Shown in pieces: positions 43,984-57,006 of a stretch of 64,000 nt of DNA (the first letter of the stretch is position 1; each line of letters opens with the position of its first letter). The notes under the pieces were generated by a model that worked only from the letters and a program-made list of their open reading frames with translations, ran no database searches and was not told where the DNA came from. This DNA comes from Nocardioides sp. JQ2195 (lineage in GTDB: Bacteria; Actinomycetota; Actinomycetes; Propionibacteriales; Nocardioidaceae). The stretch lies in the NCBI RefSeq assembly GCF_012272695.1, contig NZ_CP050902.1, positions 868,001-932,000 on the forward strand, in the 5' to 3' direction. Both the position numbers and the translations under genes were made by a program.

Positions 43984-45393
<1,410 letters not shown>

Positions 45394-45397
45394 GCCG

Positions 45398-46810
45398 ATG
45401 ACCAGCTCTGAGCGCGTCGTCATCATCGGTGGCGGTCCCGGCGGCTACGAGTCGGCGCTGGTGGCCGCGCAGCTCGGTGCCGACGTGACCGTGGTCGACT
45501 GCGACGGCATCGGCGGCAGCGCGGTGCTGACCGACTGTGTGCCGAGCAAGACCCTGATCGCCACCGCCGAGGTGATGACGGAGGTGACCGACGCCGCCGA
45601 GCTCGGTGTGGTCTTCGAGGACGCGGCCGGCGACGTGGCCAGCAAGGTCAAGGTCGACCTGGCCAAGCTCAACGCGCGGGTCCTGCGGCTGGCGGGCGAG
45701 CAGTCCGCCGACATCGCTCGGCGCCTCGAGCGTGAAGGGGTCAAGGTCGTCCAGGGCCGCGGACGACTCGGCGCTGCCCAGAAGGGCTCCCACCGGGTCG
45801 TGGTCACCGCCGCCGACGGAGCCGAGCAGGAGCTCGGCGCAGACACGGTGCTCGTGGCGACGGGAGCCTCGCCGCGCACCCTTCCCTCGGCCCAGCCTGA
45901 CGGCGAGCGCATCCTGACCTGGGAGCAGGTCTACGACCTCACCGAGGTGCCCCAGAAGCTGGTCGTGGTCGGCTCCGGTGTCACGGGTGCCGAGTTCGCC
46001 TCTGCCTACTTGGCCCTCGGCATCGACGTCACCCTGGTCTCCTCGCGGGACCGAGTGCTGCCGGGCGAGGACGCTGACGCCTCCGCCGTGCTCGAGGACG
46101 TCGCCAAGCGGCGCGGGATGCAGGTGCTGTCGAAGTCGCGGATGGAGTCGGTGACCCGCGACGGCGACACGGTCACCGTCACCCTGACCGACGGCCGCAC
46201 GGTCTCCGGCTCCCACTGCATCCTGGCCCTCGGCTCGATCCCCAACACCGCCGACCTCGGGCTCGAGGACGCCGGCGTGGAGGTCGACGACGGTGGTTTC
46301 ATCAAGGTCGACAAGGTCTCGCGCACGTCGGCGCGCGGCGTCTACGCCGCCGGCGACTGCACGGGCGTGCTCATGCTGGCCTCGGTCGCGGCCATGCAGG
46401 GACGCATCGCGATGTGGCACGTGCTCGGCGACGCCGTGGCCCCGCTCGACCTGCGCAAGGTCTCGTCCAACGTCTTCACCGCCCCCGAGATCGCGACGGT
46501 CGGTTGCTCGCAGAAGGCCGTCGACGAGGGCGAGATCGTGGCCGAGGTCGTGATGCTCAAGCTGGCGGGCAACCCTCGCGCCAAGATGCAGGGCGTTCAC
46601 GACGGGTTCGTGAAGCTGTTCTGTCGCCCCGGCACCGGCACGGTGGTCGGAGGCGTGGTGGTGGGGCCGCGGGCCTCCGAGCTGATCCACCCGATCTCCA
46701 TCGCGGTGTCGGAGAAGCTGACTGCCGACCAGGTGGCCCAGGTGTTCACCGTCTACCCGTCGATGTCCGGCTCGATCGCCGAGGCGGCCCGACGGCTGCA
46801 CAACGTCTGA
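45398..46810 (+). CDS. lpdA: NAD(P)H-quinone dehydrogenase-type flavoprotein (LpdA-like)
   Basis: 470 residues, flavoprotein disulfide reductase fold but without the redox pair: where Lpd has C-x4-C, this protein has GGSAVLTDCVPSKTL (about 38-52), with one Cys only. That is the mark of mycobacterial LpdA (NAD(P)H:quinone reductase) rather than lipoamide dehydrogenase. FAD motif IIGGGPGGYESALVAAQLG (about 8-26), NAD motif VGSGVTGAEFASAY, and YAAGDCTGVLML (about 318-329) are intact. ATG at 45398, 4 bp after lpd. Convergent with the frameshifted ATPase gene. Confidence 0.92.
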   Translation: MTSSERVVIIGGGPGGYESALVAAQLGADVTVVDCDGIGGSAVLTDCVPSKTLIATAEVMTEVTDAAELGVVFEDAAGDVASKVKVDLAKLNARVLRLAGEQSADIARRLEREGVKVVQGRGRLGAAQKGSHRVVVTAADGAEQELGADTVLVATGASPRTLPSAQPDGERILTWEQVYDLTEVPQKLVVVGSGVTGAEFASAYLALGIDVTLVSSRDRVLPGEDADASAVLEDVAKRRGMQVLSKSRMESVTRDGDTVTVTLTDGRTVSGSHCILALGSIPNTADLGLEDAGVEVDDGGFIKVDKVSRTSARGVYAAGDCTGVLMLASVAAMQGRIAMWHVLGDAVAPLDLRKVSSNVFTAPEIATVGCSQKAVDEGEIVAEVVMLKLAGNPRAKMQGVHDGFVKLFCRPGTGTVVGGVVVGPRASELIHPISIAVSEKLTADQVAQVFTVYPSMSGSIAEAARRLHNV

Positions 46811-47583: not shown

Positions 47584-48492
47584 TCAGAAGTCGAAGCCAC
47601 CGAAGTCGAAGCCTCCGCCCACGTCGCCGCCACCGAAGTCACCACCGAAGTCACCGCCACCGGCGTCGCCGCCGCCGAAGTCACCGCCGGCGTCACCGCC
47701 GCCGAAGTCACCACCAGCGTCACCGCCGCCGGGATCGGACCAGTCACCGCCGTCGCCTCCGGTCCCCGAGATATCCCCGCCGTCACCCCCGCCGTCACCC
47801 GTGCCGTCGCCGGAGGTGATCGCCGGGTCCCAGATGCCACTCATCATCGAGCCGATCAGGAACGCGGGGAACAGGCCGTTCATCGCATAGGCGCCGTAGT
47901 AGCCGTCGGCGTAGGCGCCGTACGCGGGCCCGCCCTGGTACCAGGGCACCATGCGGTTCCCGTTGCGCACCTGGCGCACGTCGGGCTCGGCACCGGCGGT
48001 GAGCCGGTCGGCGTCGGCCAGGCAGACCGGGATCTCCCGTTGCTGCCCGCCCGGCGGTGCCCAGAGCACGTCGGTCTGCGCCGGTCCGTGGCGGGGATTG
48101 AAGAAGCACGGAGGCCGTCGCTGGGGGAGCGGCTCGTCGTCCTGCCGGGCCAGCACGCAAGCCTGGGCGTAGCGACCGTCCTCGAGCACACGGGTCACGG
48201 CGGAGACCTCGGCCGGGTCGTCCACGTCGTGGAGCAGCGCCTTGGCGCTCTCGTAGGAGTCGAGGGCGCGTTGGTAGTCCTGGCGCATCGGCACGTCGAG
48301 CTCGGTGGCCAAGGTGTCGATGTGCAGCTCGGTCAGCTCCTCGCCGAAGCGGGTCACGTCCTCCTCGACGACCTTCTTCACCTTCTGCAGCTCGGCGTCG
48401 CGGCGTTGCTGGAGAGCTCGCTGGTCCCGCGCACGAACGAGGAGCAGCGCAACCACGGCTGCCACGGCCACTGCCACCATCAACCACTCCAT
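47584..48492 (-). CDS. membrane-anchored protein with Cys/His module and Gly/Asp-rich tail
   Basis: 302 residues. N-terminal membrane helix (about 2-20), coiled-coil-like segment (about 25-62), then a module shared with the genes at 51500-52657 and 53388-54632: ALDSYESAKALLHDVDDPAEV (about 75-95), GRYAQACVLA, CFFNPRHG (about 129-136) and REIPVCLADADRL (about 151-163). After an aromatic Tyr/Gly segment (AYGAYADGYYGAYAM) it ends in about 75 residues of GGGD-type repeats. Function unknown; possibly a zinc- or metal-binding envelope protein (inference). ATG at 48492. Divergent from the SpoIID gene. Confidence 0.8.
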   Translation of the reverse strand: MEWLMVAVAVAAVVALLLVRARDQRALQQRRDAELQKVKKVVEEDVTRFGEELTELHIDTLATELDVPMRQDYQRALDSYESAKALLHDVDDPAEVSAVTRVLEDGRYAQACVLARQDDEPLPQRRPPCFFNPRHGPAQTDVLWAPPGGQQREIPVCLADADRLTAGAEPDVRQVRNGNRMVPWYQGGPAYGAYADGYYGAYAMNGLFPAFLIGSMMSGIWDPAITSGDGTGDGGGDGGDISGTGGDGGDWSDPGGGDAGGDFGGGDAGGDFGGGDAGGGDFGGDFGGGDVGGGFDFGGFDF

Positions 48493-49862: not shown

Positions 49863-50918
49863 TCAGCCTTCGCTGATCGCGATCACCACCACGGTGTGGT
49901 TGTCGGGAGCCCCTGCGTCCTCGACCGCCGCGGAGATCCTTGCTGCGACGGTGTCCGGGTCTCCGGGTGCGACCAGCATCTCGTCCAGCTCAGCCGCCTG
50001 CAGGACCGAGTGGACACCGTCGGTGGTGAGCACCAGCCGGTCTCCGGGACGCACGGTGGTCAGCCCGATGTCGGGGACGGACGGGGCACCGGGAGCCAGG
50101 GCCCGGTTGATCAGCATGCGCTTCGGGTGGGCCGCGGCCTCCTCCTCGTTGAGCCGCCCCTCGGCGACGAGCTCGGCCACCATGGTGTGGTCACGGGTCA
50201 GTCGCCGGACCGTCCCGTCGCGGACCAGGTGGATGCGCGCGTCGCCGACGTGTGCGGTGATCGCGCTGCCCTGGTGGAGCCAGAGCGCCGTCAGCGTCGT
50301 GCCGTCCGACTCGGCCACCTCCTCCAGGACTGCCGCGGCCGCCCGGGCGACCGCCGCCTCGATCTCGGCGGCAGGGTCGGTGGTGTGGCAGTCCTCCAGT
50401 CCCACGAGTGTCTCCAACGCCCGCGACGAGACGTCGTCGTGGTTGCCGAACCCGTCGGCCACCGCGAAGAGTCCGGCTCCGGTGAGGACCGCATCCTGTT
50501 GGCTCCTGCGGGCACCCTGGCGGTGGCGGTGTGCCGCACTGGCGGTGAGCTCGGGGTGGGTGGGGTGGGTGGTGTTCATGGGGGTCTTCCTCTCGTGCAT
50601 CCTGGCGACGAGTCCGACCAGCGTCGTGCGGCGCGAGGCGTGGTCCGCCTCGGCCTGGCGCCAGTAGGCCTCGATCTCCACGGCCGCAGCTTCATCCGGC
50701 AGGAGGATGACCTGCCGGATCCGGGCCAGCGGCATCCCGACCAGCCGCAGGCCGGCCACCAGCCGGGCCCGGGGGAGCTGGGCAGGCGCATAGCGACGGT
50801 AGCCGTTGAACGGGTCCACCTCGGCCGGGGTCAGCAGTCCGAGCTCGTCGTAGAGGCGCAACGCCTTCGCGCTCAGCCCCGACTCCCCGGCGAAGTCGCC
50901 GATGTTCATGAGTGCCAT
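49863..50918 (-). CDS. MerR-type regulator fused to a PP2C protein phosphatase
   Basis: 351 residues. N-terminal MerR wing-HTH: MNIGDFAGESGLSAKALRLYDELGLL (key part GLSAKALRLYDELG, about 14-27) and GYRRYAPAQLPRARLV (about 38-53). After a linker, a PP2C (PPM) phosphatase domain: RRSQQDAVL, VADGFGNHDD (about 150-159), GDARIHLVRDG (about 223-233), TTDGVHSVL (about 297-305) and final DNHTVVVI (about 340-347); all the metal-binding Asp residues are present. A DNA-binding head on a phosphatase suggests a signal-linked repressor or activator. ATG at 50918, with GAGG 8 bases upstream. Confidence 0.9.
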   Translation of the reverse strand: MALMNIGDFAGESGLSAKALRLYDELGLLTPAEVDPFNGYRRYAPAQLPRARLVAGLRLVGMPLARIRQVILLPDEAAAVEIEAYWRQAEADHASRRTTLVGLVARMHERKTPMNTTHPTHPELTASAAHRHRQGARRSQQDAVLTGAGLFAVADGFGNHDDVSSRALETLVGLEDCHTTDPAAEIEAAVARAAAAVLEEVAESDGTTLTALWLHQGSAITAHVGDARIHLVRDGTVRRLTRDHTMVAELVAEGRLNEEEAAAHPKRMLINRALAPGAPSVPDIGLTTVRPGDRLVLTTDGVHSVLQAAELDEMLVAPGDPDTVAARISAAVEDAGAPDNHTVVVIAISEG

Positions 50919-50993
50919 GTGGAGATCCTCGTCCCCGGTGACGTTCACCGGTCCGGTGACGGTGCACCTTTCCCCAAGGAGAGTCAACAGTCC

Positions 50994-51499: not shown

Positions 51500-52657
51500 T
51501 CACCGGTGGTCGTGCAGCCGGACCATCAGGTCGGGCTCCAAGGCTCCGTAGCCGGTCGACGCCCACGGCTCGACCTCGGTCTCGAAGTAGTGGACCGGCC
51601 TGCCCTTGTGGACGACGTCGAGGATGTCGGGCACCTTCTTCCTCCGGAGCGCCTCGCGGCACTCGTCGCACACCGGGACCTCGAGGGTGCGGCCCTGCCA
51701 CTCGATGCGCCGTCCCCTCCCAGCCTGGCCGTGCAGCGGGTTGAGGTAGCACGTGGCGGTCGGCTGCCACGCCTTCCCGCCACGGGCGCAGGCGAACGCC
51801 TCACGTCCGCGCTGGGTGAGCACGAGGGCTCCGACCACGTCGAGCTCGGCGGGCTCGTCGGGAGTGAGCAGTCGGCGCACGACGGCGTAGTGGTCGAGTG
51901 CTGCCTGCCACGAGTCGGCATCGTCGCCGGGCTCGATCTCCGCCTGGTCGAGCTGCTCACCCAGTGCTTGGGACTCGTCGCGGGCACGGGCCAGCAGCTC
52001 GCGTGCTCGAGCCGCGCGAATCCGGCGCATCGCCGACTTCGGCAGCGGTGCCGGCTTCCTGCGGAACGACACCGCCACGCGCCAGGCGACGAAGACCGCC
52101 AGCGCCGCCACCAGCACCGTGGTCAGGCCGCCGGGCAGCCATCCGTCATCGTCCTCGGGTCCGTCGCCGCGCGTCGCCGCCCCCTGTGCCAGCAGCTCGT
52201 CGTTCAGCTCGGCGACCTGGTCGGGATCCATGTCCAGCAGTTCGAGCGTGCGACCCATCGCCGACGGGATGTCTTGGTGCTCCTCCTGGTCGACCACCAT
52301 CTCGACGGCCCACTCGGAGAGGTCGCCGTCGGCCTCGCCGGGGATGCCCCACTGCCGGCCGTCGACCTCGACGCTGGTGTGGTCGGTCGGCTCCAGCCTC
52401 GTCGTGGTGGAGAGGTAGATCCCCGGCTCCGGGTACTCGTCGTGCAAGCGGGTCAGCAGGTCCGAGGCCTTGCCGCCGTAGGTGTCGCTCTCGCGCAGCG
52501 GCCACACCACGACGTACGTCGGGTGCTCGGCACGCGCGGCCTCCTGCTCGAGGGCTGCTTCGTCCGCGGGAGTGACGAGGTCGGCGAGGGAGGGGTGGAC
52601 GAAGACCCCGTCCTTGGCCAGCTCCTCGTGGATCCTCGCCAGGTCGTCCTGGTCCAT
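51500..52657 (-). CDS. TPM-like membrane protein with C-terminal Cys/His module
   Basis: 385 residues from the ATG at 52657, which has GAGGAG 6 bases upstream. N-terminal domain (about 1-125) resembles a TPM domain: ELAKDGVFVHPSLADLV, PTYVVVWPLRESDTYG and DEYPEPGIYLST. A membrane helix at about 176-200 (LTTVLVAALAVFVAW) follows. The C-terminal module then has ALDHYAVVRRLLTPDEPAEL (about 251-270), CYLNPLHG (about 304-311) and LEVPVCDECREALRRKKVP (about 324-342), a possible zinc ribbon. The last gene of the accA3-to-TPM series. No known function; TPM domains elsewhere bind metal or phosphate-type ligands. Confidence 0.78.
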   Translation of the reverse strand: MDQDDLARIHEELAKDGVFVHPSLADLVTPADEAALEQEAARAEHPTYVVVWPLRESDTYGGKASDLLTRLHDEYPEPGIYLSTTTRLEPTDHTSVEVDGRQWGIPGEADGDLSEWAVEMVVDQEEHQDIPSAMGRTLELLDMDPDQVAELNDELLAQGAATRGDGPEDDDGWLPGGLTTVLVAALAVFVAWRVAVSFRRKPAPLPKSAMRRIRAARARELLARARDESQALGEQLDQAEIEPGDDADSWQAALDHYAVVRRLLTPDEPAELDVVGALVLTQRGREAFACARGGKAWQPTATCYLNPLHGQAGRGRRIEWQGRTLEVPVCDECREALRRKKVPDILDVVHKGRPVHYFETEVEPWASTGYGALEPDLMVRLHDHR

Positions 52658-52668
52658 CGCGTTGCTCC

Positions 52669-53391
52669 TCACCAGCGCCAGCCTCCGGGCAGGCGTCGCT
52701 TGGTCACCAGGACGATCAGTCCGTGGACCAGGCCGACGCCCAGCAGCACCCCGACGGCGTAGAGGGCACCGATCCCGATGCCGCCGCCGACTCCGCCGTA
52801 GTAGTCGAAGTCCTCGTTCGTGTCGGTCCACTCGACCTGCTCGTCGACCTGCCTGACCAGACGGGGGATGGTGATCGCGGGATCCCCGGCGAAGTCCTCG
52901 TGGGTCGAGATGGACGAGATGTAGCCGTTCCTGCCGTAGGTGTCGAGGGTGCCCTTCTCCGGCCCCTCCCACACCAGGTAGACGCCGTGGCCGCCGCCTT
53001 CCGCCAACCCGGCCTCGAGCTGCTGGACCAGGTCGAAACGCGATGCCCCGGCGAAGCTGGTCTCGGTCCAGACCACCACCTTGACCGGTGTGGTCGAGGC
53101 TGCGATTGCCCGGGCCACCTTCCGTTCCCCCGCCGGGTCGAGCAGGTCGCGGGCGTCGGGAGCGACGTTGACGCCGTCGTCGCGCAACCCGTCCAGTGCA
53201 TGACGCACCCGGTCGACGCGCGCCTCGGGCGCCAACGCAGCAGCCCGGGCGGACACGGCGTCGGCTCGTCGGTCGTGCAGCACCTGGGTGGCGAGCACCG
53301 CCGATCCGGCGCCCAGCCCGCAGGCAACGACCAAGGACACCAGCCCGCGGAGCACTCGTCGGCGCGTGGCAGTCACCCCGGAGCCCGTCAT
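52669..53391 (-). CDS. TPM-like membrane protein, short form
   Basis: 240 residues. An N-terminal membrane anchor (about 10-36, VLRGLVSLVVACGLGAGSAV) is followed by a TPM-like domain: HALDGLRDDGVNVAPDARDLL, PVKVVVWTETSFAGASRFD and GHGVYLVWEGPEKG. A C-terminal helix (about 203-230, GIGIGALYAVGVLLGVGLV) follows, and the protein ends RRLPGGWRW. The Cys/His module of its neighbours is absent. The ATG at 53391 overlaps the stop of the upstream gene (ATGA), so translation is coupled. Confidence 0.75.
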   Translation of the reverse strand: MTGSGVTATRRRVLRGLVSLVVACGLGAGSAVLATQVLHDRRADAVSARAAALAPEARVDRVRHALDGLRDDGVNVAPDARDLLDPAGERKVARAIAASTTPVKVVVWTETSFAGASRFDLVQQLEAGLAEGGGHGVYLVWEGPEKGTLDTYGRNGYISSISTHEDFAGDPAITIPRLVRQVDEQVEWTDTNEDFDYYGGVGGGIGIGALYAVGVLLGVGLVHGLIVLVTKRRLPGGWRW

Positions 53392-54632
53392 CGCGGGACC
53401 TGCTTCCACCAGTCGCCGCCGAGCGACCCGAAGCCGCTCATCGCCCAGACCGTCGAGCCCTCGTAGTAGGGGCGTCGCCCGGCGAGCGTCTCCTCGGTGA
53501 GCGGCTCCAGCCCGGAGCCCCGCTCCAGGGACTTCGCGCAGGATCGGCACACCGGCACACTGACGCCGCCACCGAGCGGTGACCTGGTGTCGGCGAACCC
53601 ATGGCGCGGGTCGACGTAGCAGCAGCGGTACTGCCCCTGCTCCCGGGTGAGGGCGTGCATGCCGGTGCGCGCCAGCACCAGTGCTCCCAGGACCTCGAGG
53701 AAGTCGTCGGACGCGATGCGTGGCTCGGCGCGGTCCAGGCACGTGGAGGCAACGTCGCGACGCTGCCAGTCGTCGAGCTCGTCGCCGCTGCCGAGCACGC
53801 CTGCGAGCGTGCGGGTCTCCGCCGTGGCCTTCGCCTGCCAGTGTCGCAGCTCCTCCCGTGGACCACGGACCGTCGACCGACCGACGGGCGACGAGGACGA
53901 CCGGGAGGGAGACCGCGTGCTGGTGGCATCCTTGGAGCCGAGGGGTGGGTGCGTGGCGCCTCCGACGGCCTGCAGCAGTCGATAGGCGACCACCGCGACG
54001 CACAGCGCCGTCATCGTGGCCACGACCGCATAGAGGCCCGGTGTCGGCATCTCCGCGTCGTCGTGGATCCCGGTCCTGGTCTGGGTGCCCTGCCACGTCG
54101 AGGCGGTGTAGGCGTCGACCTGGGCCGGGCTGAGGGGATCGTCACGTCCGCCGGACAGCCCGGCGTTCACCGAGTCGAGCACCAGCCCTGCCTCGATCAC
54201 GGGGGTGGAGAAGCAGTCGGCGCAGTCGGACCGGATCGCGGCAGCCACCTGGTCCTCGGCGCGGCTCACGGCCAGGGAGAGCTCGGTCTCGTCGTTGTCG
54301 ACCTTCGGGTCGATGTCGCCGTAGACGGCCAGTGCGGTGTGTCCCGTGTCGGCGGTGGCCACGAACCAGACGCCGTCCTCGCCCGAGCGGGCGTGGAGCA
54401 ACGTGAGCAGCTCCTCGGCGGTGTTGTCGGTCGTGAGGCCGACGGGTGCCTTGGTGAGCACCACGTGCACCGGGACCGGGCTCGTCGCGGCCTTGGCACC
54501 CAGCGCCTCGCGGATCGCCTCGGTGTGCCCGTTGCCCATGACCTCCTCGACCAGGACCGGGTCCTGGTCGAGGTGCGCCACGATCTCGGCGACGGTGCCG
54601 GCGAAGTCCTGCTCAGTGGCCGCAGAGGCCAC
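53388..54632 (-). CDS. TPM-like membrane protein with Cys/His module, first of the series
   Basis: 414 residues. N-terminal TPM-like part: VAEIVAHLDQDPVLVEEVMG, PVPVHVVLTKAPVGLT, and EDGVWFVATADTGHTALAVYG. A CADC pair (about 133-136) lies in the extracytoplasmic or linker region. The membrane helix is at about 200-221 (LYAVVATMTALCVAVVAY). The C-terminal module has RDVASTCLDRAEPRI, GALVLARTGMHAL, CCYVDPRHG (about 343-351), and VSVPVCRSCAKSLERG (about 363-378). GTG at 54632, only 3 bp after the accA3-like stop, so expression is tied to the carboxylase gene. Confidence 0.78.
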   Translation of the reverse strand: MASAATEQDFAGTVAEIVAHLDQDPVLVEEVMGNGHTEAIREALGAKAATSPVPVHVVLTKAPVGLTTDNTAEELLTLLHARSGEDGVWFVATADTGHTALAVYGDIDPKVDNDETELSLAVSRAEDQVAAAIRSDCADCFSTPVIEAGLVLDSVNAGLSGGRDDPLSPAQVDAYTASTWQGTQTRTGIHDDAEMPTPGLYAVVATMTALCVAVVAYRLLQAVGGATHPPLGSKDATSTRSPSRSSSSPVGRSTVRGPREELRHWQAKATAETRTLAGVLGSGDELDDWQRRDVASTCLDRAEPRIASDDFLEVLGALVLARTGMHALTREQGQYRCCYVDPRHGFADTRSPLGGGVSVPVCRSCAKSLERGSGLEPLTEETLAGRRPYYEGSTVWAMSGFGSLGGDWWKQVPR

Positions 54633-56559: not shown

Positions 56560-57006
56560 TCACAGGGGCGCGGCCTCGTGCGCGGGTGGCTCGTCGTCGC
56601 GGGAGGGCCGGCGCCGTTTCCTCCCGACCAGCTGGCCGAGGTCCTCGCGACAGCGAGCCTCGATGCCGTCGAGGTCGGCGATCGTGGCGTCGATGTCACG
56701 GCGCTGCTGCTCCAGCGCGCGCCGGCGTACGTCGCACTGGTCGATGAGGTAGTTGAGCTGGCCCGCCTCGCCCGGCGGTTCGTCGTACATGTTGACGATC
56801 ACCGAGATCTCGTCGAGGGAGAAGCCGACCCGTTTTCCCCGCAGGATCAGCTCGAGACGGATCCTGTCGCGCTGGTGGTACTCCCGGGCGACACCCACAC
56901 GCACCGGGTGCAGCAACCCGAGGTCCTCGTAGTGGCGCAGGGTGCGCAGGCTGACGGCGTACTCGTCGGCGAGCTGGCGGATCGTCCAGGTGGTCACCAC
57001 CGGCAT
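56560..57006 (-). CDS. MerR-family transcriptional regulator
   Basis: 148 residues. HTH start [28 protein letters not shown] (key parts [20 protein letters not shown], about 10-29), then [21 protein letters not shown] (about 41-61), and a long dimerisation helix with Arg/Asp-rich sequence. Ligand residues (Cys) of metal-sensing MerR are absent; it resembles LiuR-type regulators of branched-chain or fatty-acid degradation. Divergent from the acyl-CoA dehydrogenase gene with a palindromic operator in between, so it likely controls that gene and itself. ATG at 57006. Confidence 0.9.

Follow-up and report, generated by a model that had tools for sequence, protein, structure and literature searches.

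The gene on the minus strand at 49863-50918 of the DNA analysed here (the window: 64,000 nt, C1:868001-932000, of the 4.08 Mb, 99.97% complete genome of Nocardioides sp. JQ2195) encodes a MerR DNA-binding domain fused to a PP2C phosphatase, and probably makes two products, the full-length fusion (L form) and a free PP2C (S form). Two products are predicted because a start codon with a Shine-Dalgarno (SD)-like sequence is conserved at the junction of the two domains in 81/81 family genes; all 81-gene comparisons below rest on the window gene and the best 80 of at least 576 relatives. The best explanation overall, to which we assign a probability of roughly 0.7, would be a self-contained, self-regulated, two-product phosphatase gene. 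The earlier note on this DNA had read the gene as a MerR-PP2C fusion alone; the fusion is real, but a second product is probably made as well. The domain architecture as such was already known, as MerR is among the domains combined with PP2C in a 2025 survey of bacterial PP2Cs (Fig 5 legend, PMC12088040), while the portion of that survey available to us makes no mention of an internal start, promoter or mechanism for MerR-PP2C. No description of a MerR-PP2C gene with an internal start was found in the literature at the level of titles and abstracts, mostly outside subscription journals. What is new is the build of the gene, with its conserved internal start and private MerR promoter.

The L form is an uninterrupted frame of 351 aa plus stop (ATG at 50916-50918, stop codon at 49863-49865), preceded by an SD-like sequence, CGAGGAT, at 50925-50931. 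Pfam assigned both halves of the protein, with MerR_1 at residues 4-71 (50706-50909; E 1.4e-10) and MerR at residues 5-43, both above cut-offs, and with PP2C_2 at residues 138-307 (E 7.1e-8) and PP2C at residues 105-246. The NCBIfam Stp1/IreP PP2C model matched residues 137-346 (E 6.7e-37) with 127 bits, which does not reach its equivalog cut-off of 230 bits. An AlphaFold2 model of the monomer, generated from 42 family sequences (mean pLDDT 89.8, pTM 0.69), places a MerR domain at residues 1-73, its winged helix predicted in blocks of pLDDT 94-98, then a single long helix at residues 75-110 (50589-50696), where MerR-family proteins have their dimerisation coiled coil, a junction at residues 114-118 with pLDDT below 50, and a PP2C fold at residues 121-351 (49866-50558). 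The nearest solved structures by sequence are BmrR, TipA and CueR for the N-terminus and the mycobacterial PP2Cs MsPP (2jfr) and PstP (1txo, 2cm1) for the phosphatase part, and the top Foldseek matches for the PP2C fold are PstP of M. tuberculosis, 1txo (E 1.8e-21, 35% identity), and 2cm1.

The residues R137, D142, D155, G156, D226, D300, D339 and N340, which we take to be the metal- and phosphate-binding residues of PP2C, are shared by the window protein and 81/81 aligned fusions, and D283 and D243 are kept in 78 and 80 of the 81, respectively. The His of DGxGGH, a classical PP2C motif, is not conserved in the family (the H160 column holds R 19 times, A 11, G 9, and others), and the window protein has QQ at a place where PP2Cs often carry NE. 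The window protein is thus a real MerR-PP2C fusion with its core catalytic set intact, and two proposals of the earlier note, a MerR winged helix and PP2C in one gene and an intact phosphatase domain, are borne out by the single frame, the Pfam matches and these residues. From the sequence, the fusion protein would be expected both to have phosphatase activity and to bind DNA.

We surveyed the spread of the family at several depths. Within the genus, 55/215 genomes, the source genome included, carry the fusion (a tally made by hand from the match table), 54 of them over the whole model and one (G205) to model position 312; G215 matched model positions 64-342 only. The closer relatives gave 9/58 genomes, again with the source genome included, and the one stop flagged in each of three relatives' matches is the gene's own terminal stop. 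An even sample of the phylum gave 5/396 genomes including the source genome, the other four being from one genus, with one of them matching to position 295 only. The earlier note had called such a fusion uncommon, which holds in part; the family is commoner than first thought. A pattern scan of GTDB contigs with an alignment query, from which the best 80 of at least 576 relatives were kept, retrieved loci from Nocardioides, Promicromonospora, Saccharopolyspora, Saccharothrix, Streptosporangium, Actinomadura, Streptomyces and others, all of them fusions with open frames and some from MAGs. Because homologues with open frames recur across the genus (the 55 genomes above) and in all 80 kept loci of titled records, an assembly artefact, which the earlier note had allowed for, is ruled out. 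MerR-PP2C is therefore an established actinomycete family with a patchy presence. Among ten matched plasmid records, 'MerR regulator' and 'PP2C protein' are both used as names. We would also like to note two plasmid loci. On a conjugative Streptomyces plasmid (L191, 2001-2927), near parA/parB, a 308-aa protein matches the family over residues 1-158 only, and Pfam gives it MerR and no PP2C. On the Nocardioides plasmid pCHL, the family member (L192, 2983-3999) has a predicted aadA2 gene for aminoglycoside resistance some 2.6 kb away.

Upstream of the long start, many family members carry, at about 70 nt, the motif TTGACC-TTCACCCTGGGGGAAGCCC-CAGCAT or a close variant, which comprises a -35 element, an imperfect inverted repeat, and a -10 element at 19 bp. 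The loose pattern TTGA[CG]N, 19 bp, NANNNT was found in 77/80 upstream regions (the window and the 79 loci with enough sequence, from the best 80 of at least 576 relatives), with a chance expectation of about 2% per region, a rough figure for uniform bases; a stricter core promoter pattern was found in 65/80. The three failures are L095, L102 and the window itself, whose putative own promoter/operator (50959-50987, minus strand) consists of TTGACT (50982-50987), a 17-bp spacer, CTCCTTGGGGAAAGGTG, and CACCGT (50959-50964). MerR-controlled promoters typically have spacers of 19-20 bp, and shortened ones are unresponsive, according to the part of PMC9909328 available to us. In one member of the genus (L010, upstream of 2487, minus strand), the conserved leader is displaced by some 80 nt in the upstream direction compared with its relatives. 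The arrangement looks like an insertion in front of the start used here, and the frame is open throughout it.

Ten sampled genomes were searched with another operator pattern, yielding 11 sites in 8 genomes, 8 of which lie at the family gene itself; the pattern was derived from the same upstream regions, so these self-sites are no independent proof. The pattern missed the family gene's own site in 2/10 genomes, a reversed control pattern gave 0 sites in all ten, and the window's own genome has a single operator site at up to 3 mismatches. As 77/80 regions carry the 19-bp promoter and 8/11 sampled operators lie at the family gene, the family gene should control itself, and the sites indicate its own promoter as the target of transcription control. 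The direct transcription control proposed in the earlier note would then be aimed at this promoter. A wide regulon was considered and is unsupported by these sites. Autoregulation is weakest for the window gene, because its spacer is 17 bp and not 19, with which its promoter may run without MerR distortion. The window copy also sits on a long tree branch with its internal start intact, and normal control by its L form may have been lost or changed.

Of the three operator sites outside the family, two precede separate Streptomyces MerR-type genes (L183, 1557-2525, plus strand, and L184, 608-1495, minus strand) with the same 19-bp operator type. Both have an internal ATG with an SD at the junction (energies -6.7 and -10.3); the C-terminus is GyrI-like by Pfam in L184 and similar by eye in L183, where the only Pfam match is MerR. 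These genes may cross-talk with the PP2C version. The third site (L180, 1501-1554) lies 7 nt before the ATG of a gene that belongs to no MerR fusion and encodes a 288-aa protein with a transglutaminase-like domain.

It may be asked whether the PP2C domain acts at promoters, its targets being the MerR part or partners bound to RNA polymerase, which would make the fusion a DNA-targeted phosphatase with a wider regulon. The covalent joining of the domains, the intact core catalytic residues and the extra operator before the transglutaminase-like-domain gene all fit such a role. Nevertheless, pattern sites are few and lie mostly at the family gene, with one in the source genome, and two of the three others precede separate MerR-type genes; we regard this reading as unlikely and prefer that of a self-regulated two-product gene.

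The gene neighbourhood does not extend the system. The earlier note had taken nearby genes as a hint of envelope signalling; these are not conserved, so the hint finds no support. No neighbour family is shared by more than 3 of 28 family loci (28 of the 80 kept from at least 576 relatives; frames of at least 130 aa outside the gene, from -4.5 to +5.6 kb). Three neighbours from the window, namely the SpoIID gene, the biotinyl gene and the gene at 47584-48492, were found near the fusion in only 1/80 loci (L168, Nocardioides allogilvus), and a fourth in 0/80 (in each case the best 80 of at least 576). For the 'TPM cluster' named in the same context, the two frames tested (51500-52972 and 53388-54632) had no Pfam match at E 0.001. 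The fusion gene looks self-contained and monogenic. Elsewhere in the window, a second, ordinary MerR-family gene (56560-57006, minus strand) lies just upstream of a biotin carboxylase gene, and two adjacent pyridine nucleotide-disulphide oxidoreductase genes (43984-45393 and 45398-46810, plus strand) are separated by 4 nt.

The prediction of a second product comes from the junction itself. In the window gene, an in-frame ATG (Met114, 50577-50579) falls in the disordered junction downstream of an SD-like sequence, GAGAGGAAG (50586-50594; duplex energy -6.0). A start here would yield an S form of 238 aa (49863-50579), within which the PP2C catalytic domain falls wholly, by its residues and by the model. 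The junction codon is in-frame in every family gene compared, 76 having ATG and 5 GTG, and where the Met is replaced, it is replaced by Val written GTG. Examples on the coding strand are GGAAGGACACCACC-ATG in Streptomyces, AGGAACGAGGCAC..-ATG in Nocardioides and GAGAGGAAGACCCCC-ATG in the window. With one fixed junction codon per gene (decided by eye in 9 genes with two candidate codons), the anti-SD duplex energy is -5 or lower in 81/81 genes; elsewhere in the family genes, such energies occur at 13/232 in-frame ATGs, 174/1072 ATG or GTG codons and 5021/24890 codon positions. A scan of the alignment in 13-column windows found ATG with an SD in 94% of genes at the junction, with a next peak of 10%, and ATG or GTG with an SD in 100%, with a next peak of 30%. 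The signature is also present in 23/23 homologues outside the 81-gene set (22 ATG and 1 GTG), with energies of -5.2 to -9.7, though 11 of these only just pass the threshold, at -5.2, and the window's genus supplies most of the 23. This outside set is what was left of 42 loci, of which 40 were parsed (all but L056 and L065), after 7 exact duplicates and 10 genes already in the 81 were removed; four of the 23 (L009, L010, L012 and L014) are among the nine genes in which the Met was first noticed. A chance junction ATG is excluded by the within-gene, synonymous-shuffle, positional and outside-sample controls.

The gene could also be a simple fusion regulator that makes the full-length protein only, with the junction ATG and purine run being a relic or a need for particular residues at the helix end. 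Part of the SD signal does follow from the amino acids, as 62.5% of synonymous shuffles, in which the seven codons upstream of the start were re-drawn, reach -5 or lower. Synonymous choice strengthens the signal further, however: the mean junction duplex energy is -7.17 versus -5.69 (sd 0.19) in 500 shuffles, the lowest of which gave -6.22, and 80/81 genes have a stronger junction SD than their own shuffle mean. It also opens the RNA, since the mean local structure at the junction is -6.66 kcal/mol versus -9.40 (sd 0.25) in 60 synonymous shuffles, with 73/81 genes weaker than shuffled, and versus -14.4 at the 232 other ATGs and -10.3 at 80 long-form starts. In the window gene, folding energy averages -13.5 along the gene and is -0.8 at the junction, where the structure is as weak as or weaker than at 98% of the codon positions. 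Codon choice at the junction therefore favours an SD and weak structure beyond what the protein needs.

The amino acid changes at the junction tell the same way against a full-length-only product. The residue at -5 to the junction start is R in 25 genes, G in 21, W in 11, and others in the rest, and its commonest codons are GGG, TGG, AGG, CGG and AGA, so that dissimilar side chains share one nucleotide pattern and the purine run is kept; this swap and that of M for V preserve the nucleotide signal. All 81 genes have A or G at -12 and -11, and these bases also prevail at -10 to -8. On a quick tree that left out the junction (30/78 inner branches weakly supported), residue -5 changed at least 27 times, linker length at least 21 times and ATG/GTG 5 times, with the start codon retained in every gene; the signal thus outlasted at least 21 changes of linker length, and the genes being related, the 81 are not 81 independent tests. 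We consider a full-length-only gene quite improbable. That the free phosphatase instead comes from an internal transcript, arising within the MerR part from a promoter or as a leaderless RNA, and not from the long mRNA is very unlikely, as the conserved upstream feature with its purines at -12 and -11 is of the ribosome-binding type. The long-form starts, picked by rule, have a mean SD of -8.79, stronger than at the junction (68/80 at -5 or lower), so the S form need not predominate and these energies do not give the ratio of products.

Under the two-product reading, the L form (MerR-helix-PP2C) would switch its own promoter in MerR style: bound as a dimer to the palindromic spacer, it would first hold the promoter and then activate it by distorting the overlong 19-bp spacer. 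Ribosomes on the same mRNA would also start at the internal ATG or GTG between the domains and produce the S form, a free PP2C starting much as a stand-alone PP2C does. Both products, the dimer binding and the autoregulation we infer from sequence comparison. Together these would form a one-gene feedback loop, in which the phosphatase domain of the L form registers a change and thereby alters transcription of an mRNA that also delivers free phosphatase. The PP2C domain is a natural candidate for the sensor because it is placed where the signal-binding domains of BmrR- and TipA-type proteins sit; sensing through a phosphoprotein or metal occupancy would be a guess, as would any proposal for what the L form senses, for the substrates of the PP2C, or for the ratio of L to S. 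The internal start may also be left over from the start of an ancestral PP2C gene.

PP2C phosphatases of bacteria are commonly seen as constant opponents of Ser/Thr kinases. If the two-product reading is true, a phosphatase gene with its own switch and a free enzyme would show a phosphatase setting its own level, and annotation simply as a 'MerR regulator' or 'PP2C protein' would hide the second product. More tentatively, and somewhat against the odds in our judgement, this may be one case of a general actinomycete design, in which a MerR switch that has a standard self-operator, and whose 3' end includes a ribosome-binding site, is joined to PP2C, GyrI-like or TipAS effectors; where the effector is PP2C, that domain would itself do the sensing in a one-gene homeostat of protein phosphorylation. 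MerR-GyrI-like comparators are sparse (3/198 phylum genomes at E 1e-40), and with so thin a sample, the general-design reading rests on two such genes.

Compared with known systems, the phosphatase half resembles PstP/Stp1-type PP2C (PPM) Ser/Thr phosphatases in its fold and core catalytic residues, but differs in sitting behind a MerR domain, in its sub-cut-off score on the Stp1 model and in the unconserved His of DGxGGH. The regulatory half resembles BmrR/CueR-type MerR activators in its winged helix-turn-helix and long helix, and in the 19-bp promoter spacing of the family (17 bp in the window's copy), whereas in place of a GyrI-like or metal-binding C-terminus there is an enzyme. The closest likeness in gene build is to tipA of Streptomyces lividans, a self-regulated single gene with an N-terminal MerR domain and coiled coil and a C-terminal effector domain, whose two start codons give a full-length MerR regulator (TipAL) and a short effector-only protein (TipAS), as described in the parts of PMC7762955 available to us. 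When TipAS-domain control genes were examined by a similar criterion with a wider search window, an ATG with an SD was found in the linker in 14/18 parsed loci (12/30 loci were unparsed), and 2 of the other 4 have a GTG with an SD; the test thus recovers a system with reported internal initiation. The window protein has no Pfam match to the TipAS domain (PF07739) and carries PP2C in its place, so that the C-terminus is an enzyme instead of an antibiotic-binding fold, and two products are reported for TipA while they are predicted from sequence for the fusion family. The conserved internal start and private MerR promoter suggest a TipA-like two-product gene with the enzyme as its short product, which, if true, would carry the TipAL/TipAS principle over from a drug-binding product to an enzyme. 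Having PP2C in place of TipAS, the fusion is no TipA, but its way of working may be similar.
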